Below, piece by piece: positions 1 to 57,199 of a DNA stretch of 62,370 nt. The translations under genes were made by a program, and so were the position numbers. The number at the start of each line of letters is the position of its first letter. Position 1 is the first letter of the stretch. This stretch comes from Gammaproteobacteria bacterium. GTDB taxonomy: Bacteria; Pseudomonadota; Gammaproteobacteria; JAADJB01. The notes below the pieces were generated by a model, which searched no databases, was not told where the DNA came from, and saw only the letters and a program-made list of their open reading frames with translations. Location of the stretch: assembly GCA_013151035.1 (NCBI GenBank), contig JAADJB010000030.1, positions 852 to 63,221 on the forward strand, written 5' to 3'.

Positions 1-900
1 ATCCGTCAAACCATCATTATCGTCATCCAGATCACAGACATCACCACCGTCATTCAACCCATCGGTATTCAACTGATTTGTATTCGCATCAGCCGGACAG
101 TTATCCGCATTATCACCCACGGTATCACTATCGGTATCGGTTGTTTCCGTGGCGTCTAACGGGAAGGCATCGCTGACATCAGGTGTTCCATCCTCATCAT
201 CATCCAGATCACAGACATCACCACCATCATTCAAACCATCAGTATTCAACTGATTCGTATTCGCATCAGTCGGACAGTTATCCGCATTATCACCCACACC
301 ATCACTATCGGTATCGGCTGTCTCTGTGGCATCTAACGGGAAGGCATCACTGGTATCAGGTATTCCATCTTCATCATCATCCAGATCACAGACATCACCA
401 CCATCATTCAGACCATCGGTATTTGTCTGATTCGCATTGGCATCAGCCGGACAATTATCCGCGCCATCATAGGCACCATCTAGATCACTATCCATCAACA
501 ATGGATTAGTACCAGCGGCCGCCTCATCTACATCACTTAAACCATCATTATCATCATCCAGATCACAGGCATCACCACCATCATTCATACCATCGGTATT
601 CAGTTGGTCCGCATTCGCATTAACCAAACAATTATCGGTATTATCACCCACACCATCACTATCGGTGTCGGTTGTTTCTGTGGCATCTAACGGGAAGGCA
701 TCACTGACATCAGGTGTTCCATCCTCATCATCATCCAAATCACAGACATCACCACCATCATTCAAACCATCGGTATTCAACTGATTCGTATTGGTATCAA
801 CAGGACAGTTATCGGTATTATCATTGGTACCATCTGAATCCGTATCAACCAGTAGTGGATCAGTCCCCAGATTGCCTTCAGCCACATCGCTCAGACCATC
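1..900. repeat. Coding tandem repeats, 177-bp period
   Basis: The motif CCAGATCACAG and its surroundings recur at about 27, 204, 381, 558 and 735, exactly 177 bp (59 codons) apart. The array encodes the thrombospondin type 3 units of the cohesin-like protein and continues past the left edge. Copies differ slightly, so they are not all recent duplications. Confidence 0.85.
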
Positions 901-1695
901 GCCATCATCGTCCGTATCACAAGGATCACCCTGACCATCACTATCGGTATCGGTCTGATCAACATCATTAACAGTAGGACAATTATCCACCGAATCACCG
1001 ATACCATCACCATCGGTATCGACAAAGACTGTGCTATTAACTGTGCCGACAGTGTAATTGGAAGTAACTGAAGCTGCATTATCAGAAACAGCAATCACGC
1101 GTGCCGTCACTGTTGATACACCTGCTGATGCACCTGCCTTAACCTTCAATATAATAGAGAAGAGCTCATATTTCGAAATCGGGCTACCACCCTCAAGACG
1201 TGATCCTGTACGTGTATTATTAACGTAGGCTCTGCCCGAGATACCGAACATGGCCTCATTCTCACCATCACTATCACTGTAGCGCAACTGCAATAGATCC
1301 TCAGCACTGGAAAACACCAGATTAACGCTCCCGTTATCATCATTTTGTTCAATACCAAACTCACCATCCGCATAGTGCGTTCCATGCGGATCATTATCAC
1401 CCGCCACACCCAGGCTGTTAGAGGCATCCAGCGCAAAGACTGAGGCATCCCAATCCAGGGTCACTCCTACAGCATTTAACTTAGTTGCTGTTGAATCCAG
1501 CTCAACGGTGTAAGTCACCAAATCACCCGCCACCACTTGCACTATTGTACTTGCTGTCAATGTCACCGAACCACCAACCGCATGAGCGGTCGTCGCGAAT
1601 CCCAACATACTGATCATAAGAAGCAGGCCAGCTCCCAACATGTTCTTGATTCTATGCATGGTGTTATATCCTGAATTCATTGTGTTGATTCGCAT
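1..1695 (-). CDS. Cohesin-like domain protein with thrombospondin type 3 repeats (3' end outside window)
   Basis: A secreted calcium-binding protein read on the minus strand and open at the left edge, so its C-terminus is unseen. Three in-frame ATGs lie at 1695, 1680 and 1659; AAAGGGA before 1695 and AGGA before 1659 could both serve as ribosome sites. A signal peptide (…GFATTAHA) is followed by about 160 residues with the pattern of a cohesin domain: VVAGDLVTYTVEL, then VTLDWDASVFAL, and later FSIILKVKAG. After that come aspartate-rich DxDxDG loops with NCP and DVCDLDDD motifs, the signature of thrombospondin type 3 repeats. It is last in a minus-strand cluster and follows a gene with dockerin-like units, so the two may bind each other; this is inference. 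Partner and cell location are not proven. Confidence 0.75.
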   Translation of the reverse strand, partial: MRINTMNSGYNTMHRIKNMLGAGLLLMISMLGFATTAHAVGGSVTLTASTIVQVVAGDLVTYTVELDSTATKLNAVGVTLDWDASVFALDASNSLGVAGDNDPHGTHYADGEFGIEQNDDNGSVNLVFSSAEDLLQLRYSDSDGENEAMFGISGRAYVNNTRTGSRLEGGSPISKYELFSIILKVKAGASAGVSTVTARVIAVSDNAASVTSNYTVGTVNSTVFVDTDGDGIGDSVDNCPTVNDVDQTDTDSDGQGDPCDTDDDGDGLSDVAEGNLGTDPLLVDTDSDGTNDNTDNCPVDTNTNQLNTDGLNDGGDVCDLDDDEDGTPDVSDAFPLDATETTDTDSDGVGDNTDNCLVNANADQLNTDGMNDGGDACDLDDDNDGLSDVDEAAAGTNPLLMDSDLDGAYDGADNCPADANANQTNTDGLNDGGDVCDLDDDEDGIPDTSDAFPLDATETADTDSDGVGDNADNCPTDANTNQLNTDGLNDGGDVCDLDDDEDGTPDVSDAFPLDATETTDTDSDTVGDNADNCPADANTNQLNTDGLNDGGDVCDLDDDNDGLTD

Positions 1696-1747
1696 TAAAC
1701 TAATCCCTTTAACTTCTAATTACTCAAACGATGAGTTGTATTCTATG

Positions 1748-1765
1748 CAACAATAATTATTGTTG
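1748..1765. repeat. Perfect 18-bp AT-rich palindrome
   Basis: CAACAATAATTATTGTTG is its own reverse complement. It lies in the 79-bp gap between the dockerin-like gene and the cohesin-like gene, with a second weak hairpin (CACCAT…ATGGTG) beside it. It could be a regulator site or a weak processing or termination hairpin; no T-run supports a strong terminator. Confidence 0.5.
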
Positions 1766-1774
1766 CCACCATTA

Positions 1775-3775
1775 TTATGGTGAGACTGCAGGTTTCATGG
1801 CATCGATAACCGCAACCACCTCAGCATCGGTACGTGCACCACTGGTGCCCAAGCCACCAACGCCTGTTGGCAACACCACACCGGAGGCAACAGAACCCGC
1901 ACCGGTCAAGCGCCGCTGTAGCATCAAACCATCATTAGCATCAGCATCAGCATCACCATCCACATCCAGGCCGGTCGCATAACCATCAATCACAGCAACC
2001 ACTTCAGCATCGGTACGTGCACCATTGGTGCCTAAACCACCTACGCCTGTGGGCAGCACCACACCGGATGCCACTGAACCCGCACCGGTTAAACGCCGCT
2101 GGATCATCAAACCATCATTGGCATCAGCATCACCGTCACCATCCACATCCAGGCTAACGCTACCAATGGTCACCGTTACCTCAGAAGATGTCGGATTATT
2201 ACTACCACGAATACCATCATTCGCTGTCACATAAAACGTATAATCACCGGCTATTAACGGTGTAAACACCAGATCCTCTACCGCTCTTGCCAGATCGGTA
2301 AAGCTTATGCTCGACCCCACGGGTTGTGCCGAGAGTGTCCAGAAGAAATTTATACTATCCCCATCGGCATCACTGGAACCTGCGGCTGTCAGAGTTACCG
2401 GGCTATCAATAACCACGCCTGAACCTGCCTTTAAGGCGGCATTGGGTACCGGCGGGGTATCAGCAGTCACCAGCACAGTATCAGCAACCACTGAATCCGT
2501 AGTACCATCATTCACTATCAAGCTAATGGTGTAAACACCCCACAAATCAGCAGTAAAACCAGGGGTCTGGGTAGTTGCATTTGCCAGACTGGCACTGGAA
2601 CCGGTGGGCTTATCGGTCATCGTCCAGCTATAGGTCAAGGTATCCGTGCTGTCAATATCTGTAGCAGAGCCTGACAATGCCACCAGATCACCAGGGTCAA
2701 CATAATCATTGAGCCCGGCATTGGCAACTGGCGGATTATTCGAGGTTGATGAAGTCACGGTATATGTGACCGTATCGACACTACTATTGGCAAACCCATC
2801 ATTCACCACCAAACTAAAGGTATAATCACCCGTAGCGGTCACATTCAGGGTCTTGTTCTCAACCGGATAGGTTGAGTTTACGGTAACACCGGAACTGGCA
2901 AGTGCCGCTGTTGCCGTCCACAGATAGGTTAATGGATCGCTATCGCTATCGGCTGAGGCTGAGGCGGATAGATTAATGGCAACGGTACCACTACTCAGGG
3001 ATAGGTTCTGGTCACTACCGGCATTGGCAACTGGCAGGACATTGGTTGAAATATAGGCCGCTCGACCAACAATACCCTGCCCATGTACACCACCATTGGT
3101 CACGCTCAGGTCGTAGGTACCCGGCGCGGTATTTGCTGGAATAACGGCACTAATCGTATTGGAACCGGTAACATTAACCGAGGTCAGACTTACTGATGGA
3201 TGACTGGTTGCATTATTGACATCCTCAAGCAACTGTAACGTTGCCCCAGTGATAAATTTGCTACCGGTAATCGTTACCGATATAGCACTGGTATGACTGC
3301 CTGTTGCCGGGGCAATCGGTGTTGCTGCCAGGGTCGGTGCAGTATCCAGAATCAGTGGGCCAAAATGCAGGATTGCACTGGTTCCAATAGGAATATCACT
3401 ATCGTAGGCCTGCAGATGAAAATAAAATGTACCATCCACTACGGCATTAAAATCCGCCGTTATTGAACCATTGCTCAGAGTACCACCTATTTTTACCGAG
3501 GTATTTTCACTACCAACCGCTACCGTCATACCTGCCTGATCCAGTATTGCATTCTGATCCAGCACATAATCATAGGTCAGACCACTGGCATCGCTTATTG
3601 CTGCATCCCACGATATTGTAATATCACTCTTTGTTGATGAGATATTAACAGCATGGGTTGAACTGGTGATATTCGATGGATCGGTGGTAATCACCGCCTG
3701 TGCGGGTAAAATTGAACCTAATAGTACACACAACAACGCCTTGCCCATCAGGCTCTTTATTACTTCAATCTTCAT
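1775..3775 (-). CDS. Secreted PKD/Ig-like protein with C-terminal dockerin-like calcium loops
   Basis: 666 residues, ATG at 3775 preceded by GAGGAG at 6-nt spacing. A signal peptide ends near residue 27 (PAQA). Residues ~150-245 resemble an IPT/TIG fold. Three PKD/REJ-like units follow (~245-340, 345-435, 438-535), recognised by PPVANAG openings and TYSWT / ISLIVNDG strands. Residues 542-602 and 603-666 are near-identical 61-residue units. Each has a loop DVDGDGDADAND, the D1-D3-D5-D12 spacing of a dockerin F-hand, followed by a helix GLMIQRRLTG. In cellulosomes dockerins bind cohesins, and the next gene downstream carries a cohesin-like domain. No catalytic domain is visible, so a structural or adhesive role is more likely than enzymatic. 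Confidence 0.8.
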   Translation of the reverse strand: MKIEVIKSLMGKALLCVLLGSILPAQAVITTDPSNITSSTHAVNISSTKSDITISWDAAISDASGLTYDYVLDQNAILDQAGMTVAVGSENTSVKIGGTLSNGSITADFNAVVDGTFYFHLQAYDSDIPIGTSAILHFGPLILDTAPTLAATPIAPATGSHTSAISVTITGSKFITGATLQLLEDVNNATSHPSVSLTSVNVTGSNTISAVIPANTAPGTYDLSVTNGGVHGQGIVGRAAYISTNVLPVANAGSDQNLSLSSGTVAINLSASASADSDSDPLTYLWTATAALASSGVTVNSTYPVENKTLNVTATGDYTFSLVVNDGFANSSVDTVTYTVTSSTSNNPPVANAGLNDYVDPGDLVALSGSATDIDSTDTLTYSWTMTDKPTGSSASLANATTQTPGFTADLWGVYTISLIVNDGTTDSVVADTVLVTADTPPVPNAALKAGSGVVIDSPVTLTAAGSSDADGDSINFFWTLSAQPVGSSISFTDLARAVEDLVFTPLIAGDYTFYVTANDGIRGSNNPTSSEVTVTIGSVSLDVDGDGDADANDGLMIQRRLTGAGSVASGVVLPTGVGGLGTNGARTDAEVVAVIDGYATGLDVDGDADADANDGLMLQRRLTGAGSVASGVVLPTGVGGLGTSGARTDAEVVAVIDAMKPAVSP
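1778..2152. repeat. Tandem duplication, 183-bp unit encoding dockerin-like repeats
   Basis: Two direct copies, split near 1969/1970, encode the two 61-residue calcium-loop units. They differ by few substitutions, pointing to recent duplication or gene conversion. Confidence 0.85.
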
Positions 3776-3854: not shown

Positions 3855-3914
3855 GGTGCGTGGTACGCACCCTACCTTAAAACATCCAAGCCATAGGGTG
3901 CGCATTGCGCACTA
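3855..3914. repeat. REP/BIME-like pair
   Basis: GGTGCGTGGTACGCACCCTACC (3855-3876) faces TAGGGTGCGCATTGCGCACTA (3894-3914). Each half is an imperfect palindrome and the pair forms a larger inverted repeat. It lies between the giant gene and the dockerin-like gene. Confidence 0.85.
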
Positions 3915-3919
3915 ATATC

Positions 3920-6900
3920 CTACAAAGTGAAATCCTGCGTACTATTATTACCGGTAACACCTGAGGCTGTGCCATCCGCACTGGTAAAATTGGTCGGTGG
4001 TAAAAAGACATCCACACGATAGGTCTTGGCTGGATCCAGATTACCAATACTGTACCCACCATTTGTGCCCGTTGCAGCCGTTGCAGTAAATTTACTCGTC
4101 GACTCATCATAGATATAGATCAAAGCGGAACTCACATTAGCCCCTCCTTGTGTGACAGTACCCGAGATCGAACCTGTTCGTGTGGTAATCACAAGATTAA
4201 CACCTGCTGCATCAGCAGCACTAACATCAACAGGCGACTGTGACTTGGAACCCAACTGAGTCCAGACCTCAACCACATAGTCATTGGCTGGCAACAGACC
4301 GGTGATTGTATATTCACCCGCACTATTGGTACTGGTGCTACCGCCCGAACCGGTGCTGGCAGACCAGGCATTGACCTGGGTGAAAACAATCGGGTTACCA
4401 CCATTGCTCACATAACCCGCAATACTTCGACCTGCCAACAAGGTCACATCCAGACCGGTGACATCCTGATTAACGTCAACATCACCCGTAGTATTTACAC
4501 CCGAGACCCAGTTACCCGCACTACTACTGGTCACTGCACCGCCCGAATCCACCACTACGGCATTCGAGGTGCGCATATTGACACGACCCTGACTACGAAT
4601 TTCAACATTGTAATTAGCCGTTAGTAGTCCTGTGAGCTCATAGCTACCATTACCACTACGACTGACATAGGCCCAACCACCATTATTTGACCATGCCGAG
4701 ATATCCACAATATTACCATTATCGACACCGGCAATCGTACCCGACAGGGTATGCAGACTACCGAGATTAATAATAAAGTCCTTACCTGTCACATCCGCAG
4801 CACTGGCAACCGCAACTGGCGTATGATCACTCCACACTGGCGTTGCACCGCCAACAGCGTAGGCAAACCAGCCGACAGAGGGCGAAATGGACACGACATA
4901 ATCGCTCGCATCTGCCAGGCCTTTAACCTGATAATCTACTGCACCAGTGGCATTAGTCATCAAACTGACACCACCCCAGGCATCCGTGCCGGGTGACCAG
5001 ACATCGACCCAGACCCAGGTGTTAGCAACCAGACCCGAGATACTACCCGCAATACTGCCACCCGCACCGAGGGCAAAGTCCTTACCCGTGACATCGGCAC
5101 CACTCACTACGACAGGATCAATCGCCTGATTGACATAACCATCAGCCGACAGACTGACTCGATAATCAGTGGCATCAATCAAGCCCTTGATCTCGTAAGC
5201 AACCGAGGCAGCCCCTTCCAGTTGTGTGCCACCCCAGGCATAGGTACTATCTGACCAGCTATCAATCCAGCCCCAATCACCCGTTTGCATCCCGGTCACC
5301 GTACCACTGATACTCCAGCCTGCCGGTACCAATATATTGGCATTGGGATAATCGGCACTATTGCCTGAGCTAATATCAATCACCCCAGCACGTTCCCAAC
5401 CGACCAGTGGGCGATACACCGACGTGGCTCCATCCCAGAAACCCGAGGGCACATCATCACCCCAGATATCGAGGCGATAGCCACCCACCAGTGCCAGACC
5501 CTTAATACTATATGCCACATCATCTGCTGCACCATCACCATCACTGTCTACACCTGTAACCTCAACACTATTACCCACCCAGGTGGTATCCGACCAGGCA
5601 TTAATCCACACCCGCTCACCAATAGGTAGATCACGAATAGTACCCGAGATTGAGCCACCTGTTGCCATAGTGACAAGCAACGCCTCATCAATACTCATAT
5701 CAATCAGAGTCGCCTGATCCCAACCCACCAGGGTACCTGCATTACTGTCTGTCAGATCACCCTGATAGTGCCCGTTCATATAAGCACCATTCCAGACATT
5801 AACCGACAAACGATAATCGGTTCCTGTAGGATTAACACCCAATAACTCAACCGTTGCTGCACCCGAGGCATCGGCCGTGCCGTTACCCCAGCCACCCATC
5901 ATCAGACCCTCAGACCATAGATTGGCTTCTACCTGCTCACCATCTCGTAGACCATTAACCACAACGGTCAAGGTGCTACCGGCACTCAATGATATCTGCA
6001 CACCATCCACATTACCGCCACGCGTATCCAGTTCAGTTGCCTGACTCCAGTCTACCGGCCCTGAATCAGGCGTTCCGGGTGTGCCACCGTACTGACCATT
6101 CATATAGTTATCCGAGTACCAACCCAGGCGATAATCACCCGCCTCGGATAGACCACACATCGTAAAATCAAAACTTGTGGTGGTACCATCACCAGTTAGT
6201 TCGGCATAGCTCCCACTGTCAGCCTGCTCTGACCAGACATTCAGCCACAAGGTTTCACCATCAGGTAATGCCGGATTAAGTATAATGTTGCCATTAATCG
6301 TCAGACCCGAGGTCATACGGAAATCAACACCATCAACTGAACCTGCACTGGTATCAATACGATCCGCATCATCCTCTGAGGACTGAGCGTTATAATAAAC
6401 CGTGCGATAACACGAAGACTCACCTCGTACCACAGCCACATAGCTATCAGCCGCTGGCACATTCACATTAAAGGCACCATCCTCATTGGTATTGCCACCA
6501 AACCAGGTATTCGCCAACACCTGCCCTGATTGACCTAAGGCGTAATCATCTGTCGTGTAGATATCAACCCAGAGACCACTGATACCACTACCCGCTTCAT
6601 CGCGCACAAAGCCCGAGATGGCATTACCGCCACCGAGGACAAAATCAACAGACGTTCCAGTAACAGGGGTTCCATCCATTTGCTCAACAGCAGTCACACC
6701 CGTACTATTAACTACCGCAATCAGTGGCTCTGGTGATAGATAAGCCGGATCCCAGATCCCAACCTCGTAATCCACCTCACTAATACCGGGAGCACCCGCA
6801 ACCAACAAGTTATAAGTACCATCAATACCGGTTAGCGCACCGCCATTCTCACCGGTATCCGGTGATTGAGCATTGACCCAGATCCCGGACAAGGGGTTGG

Positions 6901-9865
6901 TTCCATCGGTCACAAGACCCGTGATCGCAACACCACCACCCGCGCTAATCAGCATACCCACAGCACCCGCACCACAGACATCGGCTAATGAATCAAGCTC
7001 ATCACCCGGCCAATTTGAATCATTCTCAACATCACTATTAAACCCGCTTGCCAGGTCCCAATCGGAAACCAGGTCGTAGCCATTACCAGCATCACCTGCC
7101 ACCAGACCGCCAAGGAAGCTCTGTCCTGGCCCCGGCCAAATATTTAACTGGAAGGTCGGAACCGCAACTTGCACCAGGGCTGAATTGGTCATATTCAGGG
7201 TAAAGCAACCGTTATCATCGGTCTCAGTACCACTGGTATCCGTATTGACCCAGGCATTGGCAATACCATTGCCATCCGCATCAACCAAACGACCCTGAAT
7301 TGCTGTGCCACCATCCACCTGCGCCAGGATAGCCATATCCTGATCAACCCGCAGGCGCGTCACGATATTGTCATCGAATATACCCACAACAATACCCAGC
7401 AGATAATCACTGACACCCAGAGCCGCCATATCCGTCGCCATACCTAGCGCACCACCCGGATCAAGCAATAGCATATAGTCAGTAATCGCCTGTTGCGTCA
7501 GCTTACTGGCAATCACTAACGGTACTGTAGACGGGTCACCCATAATGTACGGAGATTCAAACAAACCTGCGGTATTACCAAACTCTGGATGCACCACATA
7601 GCGACCACTGGTGTAGGTTATATCCTGCACCCCGGTCTGGATGTCCCAAGGGGCATTAAACTCAATAGAATAATCCTGACCCGGGGCAACCGAGACCGAG
7701 AAGCTACCATCCAGCACATTAACTGTCGTATTGTAGGTAAAGCTATAATCCTGGTTATAGACAAAGACATCCATAGCAATAGCGATGGGATTCATACTAC
7801 CATCGACAACCACACCCGAGAGGGTAATACCCGCCTGCAAGGTGGCATCCACGACCTGTGGTGTACTCCCTATAGTAAAGACATTGGCAGTTTCCCAACC
7901 CGTCACCCCACCCTGATCATCGGCATAACCACCCGATACACCCGGCACATTAACGGGGTCGCCAGTATTATCATCGGTATAAGCCGTTTCAAAGCGAATC
8001 TTGTAATCACCCGCCGTTACATAGGCGGAATAGGCACCCGTCGGCCCGGTAATGGTCGAGGAGAAACGTCCCAGATCACCTGTTGGCAGACCTAAACCCG
8101 GATCTATATCCGATGACTGTATTCCAAGCCCAGGTTCATTTCCTGGAGTATAAATGGGTTCAATAATGTAGATAGGCTCAATAATGACACGCACACCTTC
8201 AACCGGCGCACCATTGCTATCTCGTACCGTACCCGATACCTCTACGCCACCTTGCAACACGATGTACAAGGTGCCGCCATCATTGAAGTCGGCTATCGCC
8301 GGAATAACCAGGGGATTCCCTTCATCACCCACATTGGCACTGGCTGGATAACTGGCAGGTGGGGTATCCATACCATCACCCGTCCATACACCACCAAATA
8401 GTTCATCACCCTGTGGCCATAGATGGAGATCGAAATCACTGACCGTCGGATCCAGTGACAAAAGAGCATTGCCGTCAGCATCAGTGACACCCTCGGCATA
8501 GGAAGAACTCGACTCAGAGTATGCCTCAACATTAACATTCGAGATCGGCGTACCCGCTTCATTGGTGACAAACACCGTCACCGTATCCGCCGTTGTCGAT
8601 CCCAGAGAAAGCACGGTTGTGGTATTAAACATATCACTGGCTGTATGGGCAGCCGATTGCTCAAAATACACGCTGGCAGAATAGAACAGCGTGAGATCAT
8701 TGCTCCCATCAATTAAAAACAGGGTATGCAGCCCGGCATCATCCGGCACAGCACTCGATGAGGCATAATCAACTATAGGATTGTTATCGGAATCCAGATC
8801 AACATTACCATTATCATCCACCGCATAGACCTCGGCACTCACCCAGGCACCGGCAATATTACTGCTACCACCGGCATCCTGAATATCAACCAGGGCTCTT
8901 TGGATGAGCGAAGGCTCAGTCACTACACCGTCTACGGTATTGGATAACATCCACTGAAAGGTAGTCCTCGTCAATACCCCCTGGGCATTGCTTGATTCTC
9001 TTACACTAAAGACGACACCAACACCCGACTTACGGTATTCGGTCTTTACCACATGATCGGTATCTCCAGTGTCCTTCCAGGTGCGCTCCCTCTCATAGGT
9101 AACCTTAAGCAGACCGTTCAAAAAACCGGGCGCAGCGGTCTGCCAGACATCAATAAACATAGCACCATCCGCTAATGGGTTATCATAGGCTGGATGAGCC
9201 AAATTGGTTAGATCATGCAAAACACCGCCATTATCATCAATGGTTACCGTCAGATTATCGATACGTTTACTGCGTTTATTCAGATTATGTTTAGCCAGAT
9301 CATCCGGGTAATAATCATGAACAACACTGGCATAGGTCTTCTCATAAACCACACCGGGTTCTAGCAACCCCGGAAGAAAAGGGGTTGGTGTATCGAGATT
9401 GCTGCTACTGAATGTTCCTGAAGTAATATAACTGGCTGGATCACTAACAAAAAAACCAGCAGAAAGATTAGCAGGATCACCAACAAAGTCATACCAGTAA
9501 CGAATTTTGTGACCATCAAAGTCATTATCCACACTCTTGGCATGGCGTGTACGACCCGCACTACTATCCTGGGTAAAATAATGACGTTCGGCGAGGGCTG
9601 TTTGATAACTGCTAACCACGGTTTCACTCGTGCCTGGTGGTGTAATAGGGCTATCAACCTCGGCGCGCACCCAGAAGATATCACTTTCTTCATACCCCCA
9701 TGAGGAGACCTGATTATATGCATACACCCGTTCGGTAATATTCGGGAAATAATCACTGGTCTGATAGGTCGTTACCGCATTGGCCATACCCGAGAGTAGA
9801 AACAGCCCGATAAAGAGAGACCAGAATGAAGTAAAGAGTGATTTCATTGTTTGTGTGTTCATCAT
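3920..9865 (-). CDS. Giant secreted protein of repeated carboxypeptidase-regulatory/Ig-like modules
   Basis: About 1981 residues from ATG 9865 (or 9862). An upstream in-frame TTG at 9895 is less likely, because the signal peptide (MKSLFTSFWSLFIGLFLLSG…ANA) starts just after 9865. The first ~450 residues form a region I do not recognise. From about residue 470 the protein is a chain of CarboxypepD_reg-like beta modules, recognised by ISGTV/ISGxIxGL openings, an alternating G-x-Y/W strand and G-x-YxIxGL endings. Many modules contain a WVxVWS / WIDSWS tryptophan motif. No protease, glycosidase or sortase motif is visible, so it probably acts as a long surface or periplasmic scaffold. It follows the STN gene by ~35 bp and precedes the dockerin-like gene. 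Function is unknown. Confidence 0.8.
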   Translation of the reverse strand: MMNTQTMKSLFTSFWSLFIGLFLLSGMANAVTTYQTSDYFPNITERVYAYNQVSSWGYEESDIFWVRAEVDSPITPPGTSETVVSSYQTALAERHYFTQDSSAGRTRHAKSVDNDFDGHKIRYWYDFVGDPANLSAGFFVSDPASYITSGTFSSSNLDTPTPFLPGLLEPGVVYEKTYASVVHDYYPDDLAKHNLNKRSKRIDNLTVTIDDNGGVLHDLTNLAHPAYDNPLADGAMFIDVWQTAAPGFLNGLLKVTYERERTWKDTGDTDHVVKTEYRKSGVGVVFSVRESSNAQGVLTRTTFQWMLSNTVDGVVTEPSLIQRALVDIQDAGGSSNIAGAWVSAEVYAVDDNGNVDLDSDNNPIVDYASSSAVPDDAGLHTLFLIDGSNDLTLFYSASVYFEQSAAHTASDMFNTTTVLSLGSTTADTVTVFVTNEAGTPISNVNVEAYSESSSSYAEGVTDADGNALLSLDPTVSDFDLHLWPQGDELFGGVWTGDGMDTPPASYPASANVGDEGNPLVIPAIADFNDGGTLYIVLQGGVEVSGTVRDSNGAPVEGVRVIIEPIYIIEPIYTPGNEPGLGIQSSDIDPGLGLPTGDLGRFSSTITGPTGAYSAYVTAGDYKIRFETAYTDDNTGDPVNVPGVSGGYADDQGGVTGWETANVFTIGSTPQVVDATLQAGITLSGVVVDGSMNPIAIAMDVFVYNQDYSFTYNTTVNVLDGSFSVSVAPGQDYSIEFNAPWDIQTGVQDITYTSGRYVVHPEFGNTAGLFESPYIMGDPSTVPLVIASKLTQQAITDYMLLLDPGGALGMATDMAALGVSDYLLGIVVGIFDDNIVTRLRVDQDMAILAQVDGGTAIQGRLVDADGNGIANAWVNTDTSGTETDDNGCFTLNMTNSALVQVAVPTFQLNIWPGPGQSFLGGLVAGDAGNGYDLVSDWDLASGFNSDVENDSNWPGDELDSLADVCGAGAVGMLISAGGGVAITGLVTDGTNPLSGIWVNAQSPDTGENGGALTGIDGTYNLLVAGAPGISEVDYEVGIWDPAYLSPEPLIAVVNSTGVTAVEQMDGTPVTGTSVDFVLGGGNAISGFVRDEAGSGISGLWVDIYTTDDYALGQSGQVLANTWFGGNTNEDGAFNVNVPAADSYVAVVRGESSCYRTVYYNAQSSEDDADRIDTSAGSVDGVDFRMTSGLTINGNIILNPALPDGETLWLNVWSEQADSGSYAELTGDGTTTSFDFTMCGLSEAGDYRLGWYSDNYMNGQYGGTPGTPDSGPVDWSQATELDTRGGNVDGVQISLSAGSTLTVVVNGLRDGEQVEANLWSEGLMMGGWGNGTADASGAATVELLGVNPTGTDYRLSVNVWNGAYMNGHYQGDLTDSNAGTLVGWDQATLIDMSIDEALLVTMATGGSISGTIRDLPIGERVWINAWSDTTWVGNSVEVTGVDSDGDGAADDVAYSIKGLALVGGYRLDIWGDDVPSGFWDGATSVYRPLVGWERAGVIDISSGNSADYPNANILVPAGWSISGTVTGMQTGDWGWIDSWSDSTYAWGGTQLEGAASVAYEIKGLIDATDYRVSLSADGYVNQAIDPVVVSGADVTGKDFALGAGGSIAGSISGLVANTWVWVDVWSPGTDAWGGVSLMTNATGAVDYQVKGLADASDYVVSISPSVGWFAYAVGGATPVWSDHTPVAVASAADVTGKDFIINLGSLHTLSGTIAGVDNGNIVDISAWSNNGGWAYVSRSGNGSYELTGLLTANYNVEIRSQGRVNMRTSNAVVVDSGGAVTSSSAGNWVSGVNTTGDVDVNQDVTGLDVTLLAGRSIAGYVSNGGNPIVFTQVNAWSASTGSGGSTSTNSAGEYTITGLLPANDYVVEVWTQLGSKSQSPVDVSAADAAGVNLVITTRTGSISGTVTQGGANVSSALIYIYDESTSKFTATAATGTNGGYSIGNLDPAKTYRVDVFLPPTNFTSADGTASGVTGNNSTQDFTL

Positions 9866-9900
9866 GACACCTGTCATCCAGATTAAATTAATCAAAAGTC

Positions 9901-10866
9901 TTAAAAACGATCGGTGTATTTATTACGCCGTTGTTGCATTTGCGCCTGTTGACCACTGCTGCGGGTCTTACCAGACTGTGTTCTTTGTTGTTGATCTAGC
10001 CGTGTCAGCAATGCTTGCCGCTCCTCAGCCGGGTTCTTGAGTGTTACCAGTTCTTTTTGCAAAACCAGCATATTCTTTTGTTCATTCAACAACATATCTC
10101 GATTATTCTGTGCGCTCTTGGCCTTTTGACCGGTCAAGAACTTAGCCTCATCCAGGCGTTCTTTGACATCCCCTTCCCCCATAGCGGCAAGTCGGCGCTG
10201 TTCTGCAATCTTTCCTTGCAAAATATCACTTTCCACTTGCGCCTTGTGGTTTAACATAGCGATAGTGCGTTGACTCTCATTGAGTGCCTTGATGACCTGG
10301 CTTGGGCTAGTCACACGGGTGTTTTTAGCCGTTTCATTGGCTGAGGTTGAACGGGGTTGCGCAACAGCACCTGATCGAGTCGCTAAACTATTCGCGGAAC
10401 GCGTCGCGGATGAATGCGCTGCGACTGAACTCCCTTCGGCCTCAATCACCTCGTATTCCGCCTGAGCCTGCATACCCTCGCGGAAGATCCGCACCTGCTC
10501 GACAACAAACTGATCCTTGCCAACCTGCTTGAAGAACAGGGCATGACTTTGATGCTTGAGAATACGCCGCAGACCTTCTTCGGCACTAAGATGGGTAAAT
10601 TTGGCACTGACTGTGCCGGTAAGCGCCTTATCAAACAAGACGCGGATATTCAGCTTGTGCGCCAATTGCTCCAGGGCAGTCTTGATGGGGACATCCTTCA
10701 TCAGGACGGTTAATTGATTATTTTGATATTCGACCAGACTAGTTGTAGCGGCATAAGCGGGGTTTGTGAGGGGGAGTAAAAACAGTAATATCGCAAAAAA
10801 ACGTTTGTTGATTGCAATCGTCCCTATATCGCTCAAAGATTGAGCAACGCATCGTACAAAAGTCAT
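9901..10866 (-). CDS. Periplasmic STN-domain protein with coiled-coil C-terminus
   Basis: About 321 residues. Start candidates are GTG 10872, ATG 10869 and ATG 10866; GAGG at 5-nt spacing favours 10866. A signal peptide (FAILLFLLPL…PAYA) is followed by residues ~50-115 that read as a secretin/TonB short N-terminal domain: LKDVPIKTALEQLA-type helix, then GTVSAKFTHLSAEEGLRRIL. The rest is Ser/Ala-rich (~140-185) and then a long charged helix rich in Q, K and E (~190-320). No secretin or TonB barrel follows, so the STN domain stands alone. In known proteins the domain docks signalling or secretion partners in the periplasm. As first gene of the cluster it may anchor or guide the giant protein; that is inference. 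Confidence 0.75.
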   Translation of the reverse strand: MTFVRCVAQSLSDIGTIAINKRFFAILLFLLPLTNPAYAATTSLVEYQNNQLTVLMKDVPIKTALEQLAHKLNIRVLFDKALTGTVSAKFTHLSAEEGLRRILKHQSHALFFKQVGKDQFVVEQVRIFREGMQAQAEYEVIEAEGSSVAAHSSATRSANSLATRSGAVAQPRSTSANETAKNTRVTSPSQVIKALNESQRTIAMLNHKAQVESDILQGKIAEQRRLAAMGEGDVKERLDEAKFLTGQKAKSAQNNRDMLLNEQKNMLVLQKELVTLKNPAEERQALLTRLDQQQRTQSGKTRSSGQQAQMQQRRNKYTDRF

Positions 10867-11013
10867 CATCACCTCGAACCACTCGCGTGGTATGTGTAAG
10901 TTAACTACCCTGAGCCGAGTATAGTCGAAAATATAATGTTTCGCCTATCCAGAAACCATAAAGTCTCACATTGAATGGGTGGCATCAAGGACTTTCATCA
11001 CACTTTTTTATTC

Positions 11014-11072
11014 GGTGCGTGGTACGCACCCTACAAAAACAGCACACCTGGGTAGGGTGCGCACTGCGCACC
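11014..11072. repeat. REP/BIME-like pair
   Basis: GGTGCGTGGTACGCACCCTAC faces GTAGGGTGCGCACTGCGCACC, the same family as at 3855. It lies between dapB and the STN cluster, marking the junction of housekeeping and cluster DNA. Confidence 0.85.
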
Positions 11073-11084
11073 ATTATTACCTAA

Positions 11085-13066
<1,982 letters not shown>

Positions 13067-13078
13067 AAATCAACCATT

Positions 13079-13166
13079 GGTGCGTAGTACGCACCCTACC
13101 GAACAAAAAAACCTTCATACGCAATACGCACCCCACCACAACCTGGTAGGGTGCGTACCACGCACC
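13079..13166. repeat. REP/BIME-like cluster, three copies
   Basis: GGTGCGTAGTACGCACCCTACC (13079-13100), a partial middle copy CGCAATACGCACCCC (~13120-13134) and GGTAGGGTGCGTACCACGCACC (13145-13166). It fills the dnaK-dnaJ gap and may shape mRNA stability between the two cistrons. Confidence 0.85.
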
Positions 13167-15809: not shown

Positions 15810-15868
15810 GGTGCGTAATACGCACCCTACCGTAACAATACCCAACCATAGGGTGCGCATTACGCACC
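15810..15868. repeat. REP/BIME-like pair
   Basis: GGTGCGTAATACGCACCCTACC faces TAGGGTGCGCATTACGCACC in the hrcA-grpE gap; same family as the pair at 3855. Confidence 0.85.
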
Positions 15869-41318: not shown

Positions 41319-41340
41319 GGTGCGTGGTACGCACCCTACC
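41319..41340. repeat. REP-like single copy
   Basis: GGTGCGTGGTACGCACCCTACC between the convergent VTT and DUF4124 genes. Confidence 0.85.
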
Positions 41341-43832: not shown

Positions 43833-43848
43833 GGTGCGTACCACGCCC
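43833..43848. repeat. Partial REP-like copy at chemoreceptor breakpoint
   Basis: GGTGCGTACCACGCCC; half of a REP copy fused to the end of the chemoreceptor remnant. Confidence 0.6.
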
Positions 43849-44714
43849 CTGCTCACCAGCGCGTGCTGCCTCAATCGCTGCATTCAAGGCAAGCAGGTTG
43901 GTTTGCTCGGATATACCACGAATAACATCCAGTACCACACTAATATTTTCAGTATCCGCTTCCAGCTTGTTAATTACCCCGGAGGCCTTTTCAACATCAT
44001 TCGCCAATAGATTAATAGAAGCGATCGGCTGAGGTCAACTGACCGGCAGAGCATGAAATACTCTGAACAATACCTTGTAACTTGGCAACAAAGGTATTAA
44101 AGGCATCAACCAAACGACCAATCTCATCATTACCCGAGGCAATCAAGCGCTTGGTCAGATCCCCCTCACCCCGCGCCATCTCTTCCAGTGAATCGACCAC
44201 ATTAAGGATATTTTTCGTTACCAGACTACTAATAATCAGCCCCGATACAACCACAACGAGAGCAGCCAATAGACTGACGATCAAGCTCACATCAAAGGCC
44301 TCACGAGAGGATGCATCAACAGTCTGTATACTGTTAATGAATCGCTCATAACTGGCATCACGGAAAGAATTCAAGGTGCTACTAAAACTGTTCAAACTAC
44401 CCCGCATCAAGCTGACTGACTTCAGCAAAGGCATTGTGCATAGCCTCCGCAAGCTCGTCGGTATCCTCCAACATATCCAGCTCAGCGGTACTCGCCGCTG
44501 TATTCATGGTCTCTTTAATCTGATCCAGACGCACCAGATTGGCATCAATACGCTCAAGGGTCGGGAAATAAACATCCTTAATATGATGCAACCTGACCGC
44601 ATTACTGCTCGTCACACTATAATTAAAAACCAAATTAACGCTAAACCCGAGTACAGCGATAAGAACGATCAACAATATTTTGTAACGTATCGAAAGGGAT
44701 CGGAGCCAGTTCAT
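43849..44714 (-). pseudogene. Methyl-accepting chemotaxis protein, broken by frameshift, deletion and truncation
   Basis: The start MNWLRSLSIRYKILLIVLIA (44714) and a ligand-binding helix run to ~44400, where the frame shifts near CAGCTTGATGCGG. A second segment has a membrane helix and HAMP (RGEGDLTKRLIASGNDEIGR). After AGQLTSA a stretch is missing before [18 protein letters not shown], and the signalling tip ([20 protein letters not shown]) is cut after GEQGRG, where a REP copy begins. Intact receptors continue with FAVVADEVR. It cannot signal. Confidence 0.85.
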
Positions 44715-57090: not shown

Positions 57091-57143
57091 GGTGCGCAGT
57101 GCGCACCCTACCGGAGATTATAGGTAAGGTGCGTACCACGCAC
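57091..57143. repeat. REP/BIME-like pair
   Basis: GGTGCGCAGTGCGCACCCTACC faces GGTGCGTACCACGCACC. A third, degenerate copy (TGATGTACAGTGCTCACCCTAC) at ~57167-57188 lies just beyond and contains a spurious ATG at 57170. Confidence 0.85.
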
Positions 57144-57199
57144 CATTAAAAAATCGGCGCTGGTTTCTGATGTACAGTGCTCACCCTACATGGAAGCTT

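Follow-up and report, generated by a model that had tools for sequence, protein, structure and literature searches.

A stretch of 62,370 nucleotides from a gammaproteobacterial genome (assembly GCA_013151035.1, contig JAADJB010000030.1, positions 852 to 63,221; hereafter the window) begins with two neighbouring genes: gene A, whose predicted exported product carries an N-terminal cohesin-like domain, and gene B, whose predicted exported product of 666 residues ends in two dockerin-like units. Our analysis of these sequences indicates that the two genes probably belong to a non-cellulosomal locus for cohesin-dockerin docking at the cell surface. An earlier note on this DNA had suggested a calcium-dependent surface complex of the two products. 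Both genes lie where it placed them (gene B at 1775-3775 and the next gene at 1-1695, both on the minus strand), and six other genomes carry both members of the pair together. The domain families, the conserved locus, the hydrophobic segments of the orthologs and the several dockerin proteins in one genome are computed observations, which are described below. The features of the two genes are as follows.

1-1695, minus strand: gene A, with a signal peptide, the cohesin-like domain and thrombospondin type 3 (TSP3) repeats, running off the window and the contig (open reading frame list, Pfam scan with 12 TSP3 stretches, contig edge)
1021-1575, minus strand: cohesin-like domain, 185 residues (cohesin profile, ortholog family, profile-profile match)
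1384-1404, minus strand: subfamily motif AGDNDPH, with GDNDxH invariant in 7/7 (seven-member alignment)
1207-1233, minus strand: subfamily motif RAYVNNTRT, with A, N and T invariant in 7/7 (seven-member alignment)
1-1020, minus strand: TSP3 repeat array, the start of a putative stalk (Pfam scan; tandem repeat at 11-823)
1775-3775, minus strand: gene B, with a signal peptide, PKD/Ig-like domains and a C-terminal tandem dockerin (open reading frame list, Pfam scan, ortholog comparison)
2156-3058, limits approximate, minus strand: PKD/Ig-like stalk of gene B (Pfam scan)
1967-2149, minus strand: dockerin unit 1 of gene B, calcium loop at 2114-2149 (Pfam scan of units and family alignment)
1784-1966, minus strand: dockerin unit 2 of gene B, calcium loop at 1931-1966 (Pfam scan of units and family alignment)

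The paired domains of gene A and gene B

The domain of gene A was compared with a cohesin profile built from 18 gammaproteobacterial PF00963 (Cohesin) domains, which recovers solved cohesins down to 8e-15. This profile scored the window domain at 22.1 bits (maximum of 40,000 shuffles, 18.8), matched its N-terminal and C-terminal halves in the correct order, and ranked the window protein directly behind the PF00963 proteins among the 4,341 open reading frames of the fetched loci (E 7e-4). When the window domain and its six orthologs were taken as a seven-member family, profile-profile comparison matched it over its full length to the cohesin profile (probability 95%, P 3.3e-8), against at most 4.8% for 150 column shuffles and 0.3% for the reversed alignment; the beta-sandwich controls (PKD, gene-B N-terminal and carboxypeptidase-regulatory profiles) reached 0.15-0.23%. 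The commonest Pfam family among the seven members was PF00963 (4/7, best E 1.3e-5). By profile comparison the homology of this domain to cohesin is thus established, and the ortholog family confirms the cohesin-like domain which had been noticed after the signal peptide.

The seven-member alignment further indicates that the domain is a distinct, divergent cohesin subfamily with two conserved central motifs; the central segment containing AGDNDPH and RAYVNNTRT was mostly left unaligned by the general cohesin profile. A PDB profile search with the seven-member family returned no cohesin. The PF00963 search of the window's own genome gave no match and that with the 18-cohesin profile gave nothing, although unfiltered HMMER on the open reading frames does detect the window protein; one cohesin-like domain of the window subfamily was found in this genome.

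In the gene B product the signal peptide is followed by a stretch without Pfam match, the PKD/Ig-like domains and the two calcium-loop units. The loops DVDGDGDADAND and DVDGDADADAND start at residues 543 and 604 (window positions 2149 and 1966), giving a spacing of 61. The two units are identical at 53 of 56 residues, and since just 3 of the 19 codon differences (in 55 codons) alter a residue, the unit sequence appears to be under purifying selection. The Dockerin_1 model (PF00404, cut-off 22.9 bits) gave 24.6 bits for the units scanned alone and 21.0 bits within the full protein, and the plan attributed to this C-terminus, two loops of the D1-D3-D5-D12 type, was borne out. In the window genome and the relatives PF00404 matched all 11 tandem pairs (best 3.6e-10), and D1, D3 and D12 as well as the arginine at loop position 18 were invariant in both units of the 11 sequences. 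The closest solved relatives of the family in the PDB profile search were the dockerin chains 2ccl_B and 1ohz_B (4e-5), which are paired with cohesin chains in those entries. EF-hand models also matched some members.

The usual unit length in this dockerin family is 52 residues, and the loops are 52 residues apart in most relatives, so that the classical short spacing between two dockerin loops was found neither there nor in the window. The spacing of 61, which the earlier note had regarded as unlike classical dockerins, was measured as such, but it is explained as the usual 52 residues plus a 9-residue insertion, which is common to the proteins on contigs C19 and C21 of the same genome and to one unit of the related locus L125. 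For this reason the pair is best read, from the alignment, as a single dockerin whose two loops are joined by a long linker. The absence of carbohydrate-active domains held in so far as the Pfam scan found no catalytic carbohydrate domain in gene B, and neither gene encodes a cellulosome-type enzyme; however, PF21027, a model for the C-terminal domain of a cellulose-binding protein, gave a short hit of 31.8 bits (cut-off 27) that overlaps the PKD region of gene B. Between the two genes there is a perfect 20-bp palindrome, GCAACAATAATTATTGTTGC, at 1747-1766, in a single copy in the window, which may be an operator or a terminator.

Conservation of the locus, proposed receptor and clients

A phylum-wide search found six orthologs of the cohesin domain, 38-49% identical, in genomes of another class. 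In all six relatives a cluster on one strand comprises the genes for a giant carboxypeptidase-regulatory-like protein, a PKD protein with tandem dockerin (identity to gene B, 36-40%) and the cohesin protein, together with gspC and gspD, the giant ortholog upstream and gspC-gspD (type II secretion) downstream of the dockerin and cohesin genes; in L126 the giant's end alone is present on the contig. The dockerin gene adjoins the cohesin gene or sits one gene away from it in 6/6, the dockerin units always terminate the protein, and gspE and gspF come next after gspD where the sequenced stretch extends far enough. Three of the six relatives have, ahead of the cohesin gene, an additional gene for an adaptor of 315-318 amino acids with a cohesin-like domain and two dockerin units. 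By these comparisons the pair is part of a larger locus whose conservation extends to an STN-like gene (its ortholog is present at one relative locus, L122; E 2e-24) and, among the relatives, to genes of type II secretion.

The cohesin subfamily comprises about three lineages, including that of the window. In the remaining genomes sampled from the class of the window the gene A domain was not detected above noise (two weak class-level matches, L026 and L027, were rejected as unrelated once read), and this patchy distribution, with relatives in another class, suggests an old horizontal transfer. No relatives were found in the plasmids, viral contigs and genome contigs searched.

The cohesin orthologs have a C-terminal pair of hydrophobic segments in 6/6, and no hydrophobic segment beyond the signal region was found in the dockerin proteins examined, which suggests that the cohesin protein is an anchored receptor and the dockerin proteins are soluble clients. 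In the window genome the C-terminal part of the receptor is most likely encoded on contig C15, because the end of this contig encodes TSP3 repeats (83% DNA identity), a region 38% identical over 524 amino acids to residues 1167-1672 of the L122 ortholog, and a Cys-hydrophobic-Arg tail resembling JDVT-CTERM. Membership in JDVT-CTERM itself was rejected (13.3 and 15.7 bits for the ends on C15 and C7, NCBIfam cut-off 27), and a homolog of the MrtJ-type protease scored 59 bits against a cut-off of 75. The suggestion that the giant protein upstream holds the complex was dropped for want of support. The anchor-like C-terminus belongs to the cohesin protein in all six orthologs, and the giant counts as a conserved neighbour and not as a proven holder.

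The PF00404 search of the own genome gave eight matches, and dockerin units of the window type were found at at least five places: gene B, contigs C53, C19 and C21, and a fragment on C54. The C53 protein is a protease with the metzincin-type motif HELGHLLGLGH, the C19 protein is PKD-like, and the C21 protein is small, with a single unit near its N-terminus. These four putative clients (the PKD protein of gene B, the metzincin-like protease, the PKD-like protein and the small one) include no carbohydrate-active enzyme of the cellulosome kind. Gene A, as assembled, has one cohesin-like domain and no cellulose-binding module, and is not a multi-cohesin scaffoldin with such a module.

Surroundings of the locus and other gammaproteobacterial genomes

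Two further genes of the window belong to the surroundings of the pair.

3920-9895, minus strand: exported giant protein, about ten domains of the carboxypeptidase-regulatory-like kind; a neighbour conserved in the relatives (Pfam scan, ortholog comparison)
9901-10872, minus strand: exported protein, STN-like by a weak match under the cut-off (Pfam scan; ortholog in the L122 locus)

The locus appears to be an insertion between dapB and carA, because genes recognisable by reading as dapB, dnaJ and dnaK lie on the window side and contig C15 continues with a VWA protein and then carA/carB. The window also contains a REP-like palindrome, GGTGCGTACCACGCACC, with 11 matches in nine places at up to 2 mismatches (0.01 expected): 3855-3871, 11014-11030, 11908-11924, 13079-13095, 13150-13166, 15810-15826, 41319-41335, 43833-43849 and 57128-57144. 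One copy separates the giant gene from the dockerin gene. The hexapeptide IIEPIY is repeated, with two copies in the giant (window 8150-8185) and three in a protein on contig C7 (L022 7218-7271), and the copies use different synonymous codons.

In the class of the window PF00963 was over the cut-off in 18 of 369 genomes. Dockerins were found in 36 sampled gammaproteobacterial genomes, cohesins in 18 and both in 5, which is weakly above chance (1.8 expected, P 0.02), and in four of the five genomes having both, a cohesin and a dockerin lie within about 3.5 kb. Physical linkage is a stronger signal than co-occurrence in the genome.

Several other arrangements were seen on the way. Cohesin genes of two other gammaproteobacterial genomes are found a short way downstream of RHS/SpvB-type genes with an internal dockerin match (sites L066 8772-15566, L078 9241-18419, L071 4710-12056 and L016 3687-8972); the internal match reaches 30.8 bits in L071 and stays below the cut-off in L066 and L078. 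On contig C34 the genome of the window itself encodes an RHS protein whose dockerin match exceeds the cut-off. The signal-cohesin-TSP3 proteins of L054, L063, L078 and L082 share a similar short hydrophobic C-terminal tail, KLIPxIIxIINSxLL[NDE] in three of the four and looser in L054, which may be a sorting or export tail. In genome G100 a cohesin-like protein of 216 amino acids with a PEP-CTERM-like tail (L107 449-1096), missed by PF00963, is encoded in the same stretch as a dockerin match.

Proposed docking and its alternatives

We propose that gene A encodes an exported receptor, in which the N-terminal divergent cohesin would be carried on a calcium-binding TSP3/Ig stalk with a C-terminal membrane or sorting anchor, and that gene B encodes a soluble exported PKD-stalk protein, whose pair of calcium loops would form one internally symmetric dockerin with a long linker. 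This dockerin would plug into the gene A cohesin at the cell surface in a calcium-dependent manner. The metzincin-like protease of C53, the PKD-like protein of C19 and perhaps the C21 protein may dock on the same receptor and thereby be retained on the cell. Related loci add the adaptor and the type II secretion genes, so that clients might exit by the type II system. For the docking pair we infer that the two domains bind, that calcium is needed, that this happens at the surface, and how the proteins are exported. A more general form of the proposal, in which dockerin-tagged proteins of diderms leave by the type II system and are caught, directly or via adaptors, by a membrane-anchored cohesin receptor from the same, dedicated locus, giving a cellulosome-like display of proteases and adhesins and not of cellulases, is offered tentatively, as somewhat less likely than not.

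Several points weigh against surface docking by the pair. The window domain alone had no Pfam match even at E 10, PF00963 included, so that the earlier expectation of profile matches for both domains held for PF00404 with the units alone and for PF00963 in four of the seven family members, but not for PF00963 with the window domain itself. AlphaFold models made without relatives had low confidence for the cohesin-like domain (pLDDT 32) and for the dockerin domain (pLDDT 43, helices not confidently modelled). One unit, as in the C21 protein, does not make a two-loop dockerin. Five of the six ortholog genomes come from one genus, the sixth being from another family. Finally, the anchor of the cohesin protein is on another contig, and its join to the window contig (C30) is by inference, with no exact end overlap found between C30 and C15.

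A generic beta-sandwich in place of a cohesin in gene A, adjacent to gene B by coincidence, would fit the missing Pfam match of the window domain and the PDB profile search without cohesin, but it is very improbable in view of the profile-profile match (P 3e-8) with its clean controls, PF00963 in four of seven members, the rank right after the PF00963 proteins among the 4,341 open reading frames, and synteny in six genomes. A more serious doubt is whether the two domains, being genuine relatives of cohesin and dockerin, are partners of each other, or have other partners or act at different steps of the same system. The genome has several more dockerin-unit proteins, cohesin-dockerin specificity is unreadable from sequence here, and the adaptor in three relatives adds alternative partners; against this, a single cohesin-like domain of the subfamily was found in the genome with no PF00963 match elsewhere there, and distant relatives keep the two genes next to each other, which leaves this alternative unlikely. 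It is also rather improbable that the dockerin units are mere calcium-stabilised C-terminal caps or export or sorting signals, with the gene A cohesin as an adhesin for another target. The units end the protein in all relatives as a C-terminal signal would, the neighbouring modules (TSP3 and PKD) are of a general stalk type, and some members are matched by EF-hand models, but the C21 unit is N-terminal, an adaptor bears both domain types, and the two families are conserved as neighbours, an arrangement seen again with other cohesins and dockerins.

The proposed docking of gene B on gene A can be compared with known systems. Non-cellulosomal modules have been described in ANME archaea (PMC9012536), and dockerin-like and cohesin-like open reading frames in Saccharophagus degradans (PMC2386152); like the window, these have such reading frames without a classical cellulosome, including in a marine gammaproteobacterium. 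The window pair differs in its adjacency, its locus conserved across classes, its divergent cohesin subfamily and the type II genes alongside in relatives. The ANME systems have S-layer plus dockerin proteins and multi-cohesin scaffolds, and a shared locus of the window kind is not described there (PMC9012536). The cellulosome (1ohz, 2ccl), with an anchoring scaffoldin and enzymes bearing type I dockerins, is similar in that the window units are nearest to these dockerins in the PDB and in the proposed arrangement of an anchored cohesin, soluble dockerin clients and, in relatives, adaptors with both domains. It differs from the window locus, which has one cohesin per receptor and no cellulase or cellulose-binding scaffold, a diderm host, and loops 52-61 residues apart in place of a short linker. 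The signal-cohesin-TSP3 proteins of five gammaproteobacterial genomes (L047, L054, L063, L078 and L082) have the domain order of gene A, but they are shorter, their cohesins are typical of PF00963 and lack the AGDNDPH segment, and some lie beside dockerin-bearing RHS-type proteins. In the readable literature our search found no account of a dockerin/cohesin locus with type II secretion. Judged on that literature, non-cellulosomal pairs are already known, and the conserved locus and the secretion linkage are new.

Cohesins and dockerins outside cellulosomes have been catalogued for a long time, with few ideas about their partners or purpose. Receptor, client, adaptor and (in relatives) secretion genes which travel together name the likely partners and make the question directly testable. 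If the proposed docking is true, diderm bacteria too would use the plug-and-socket logic of the cellulosome, keeping secreted proteins at their surface.

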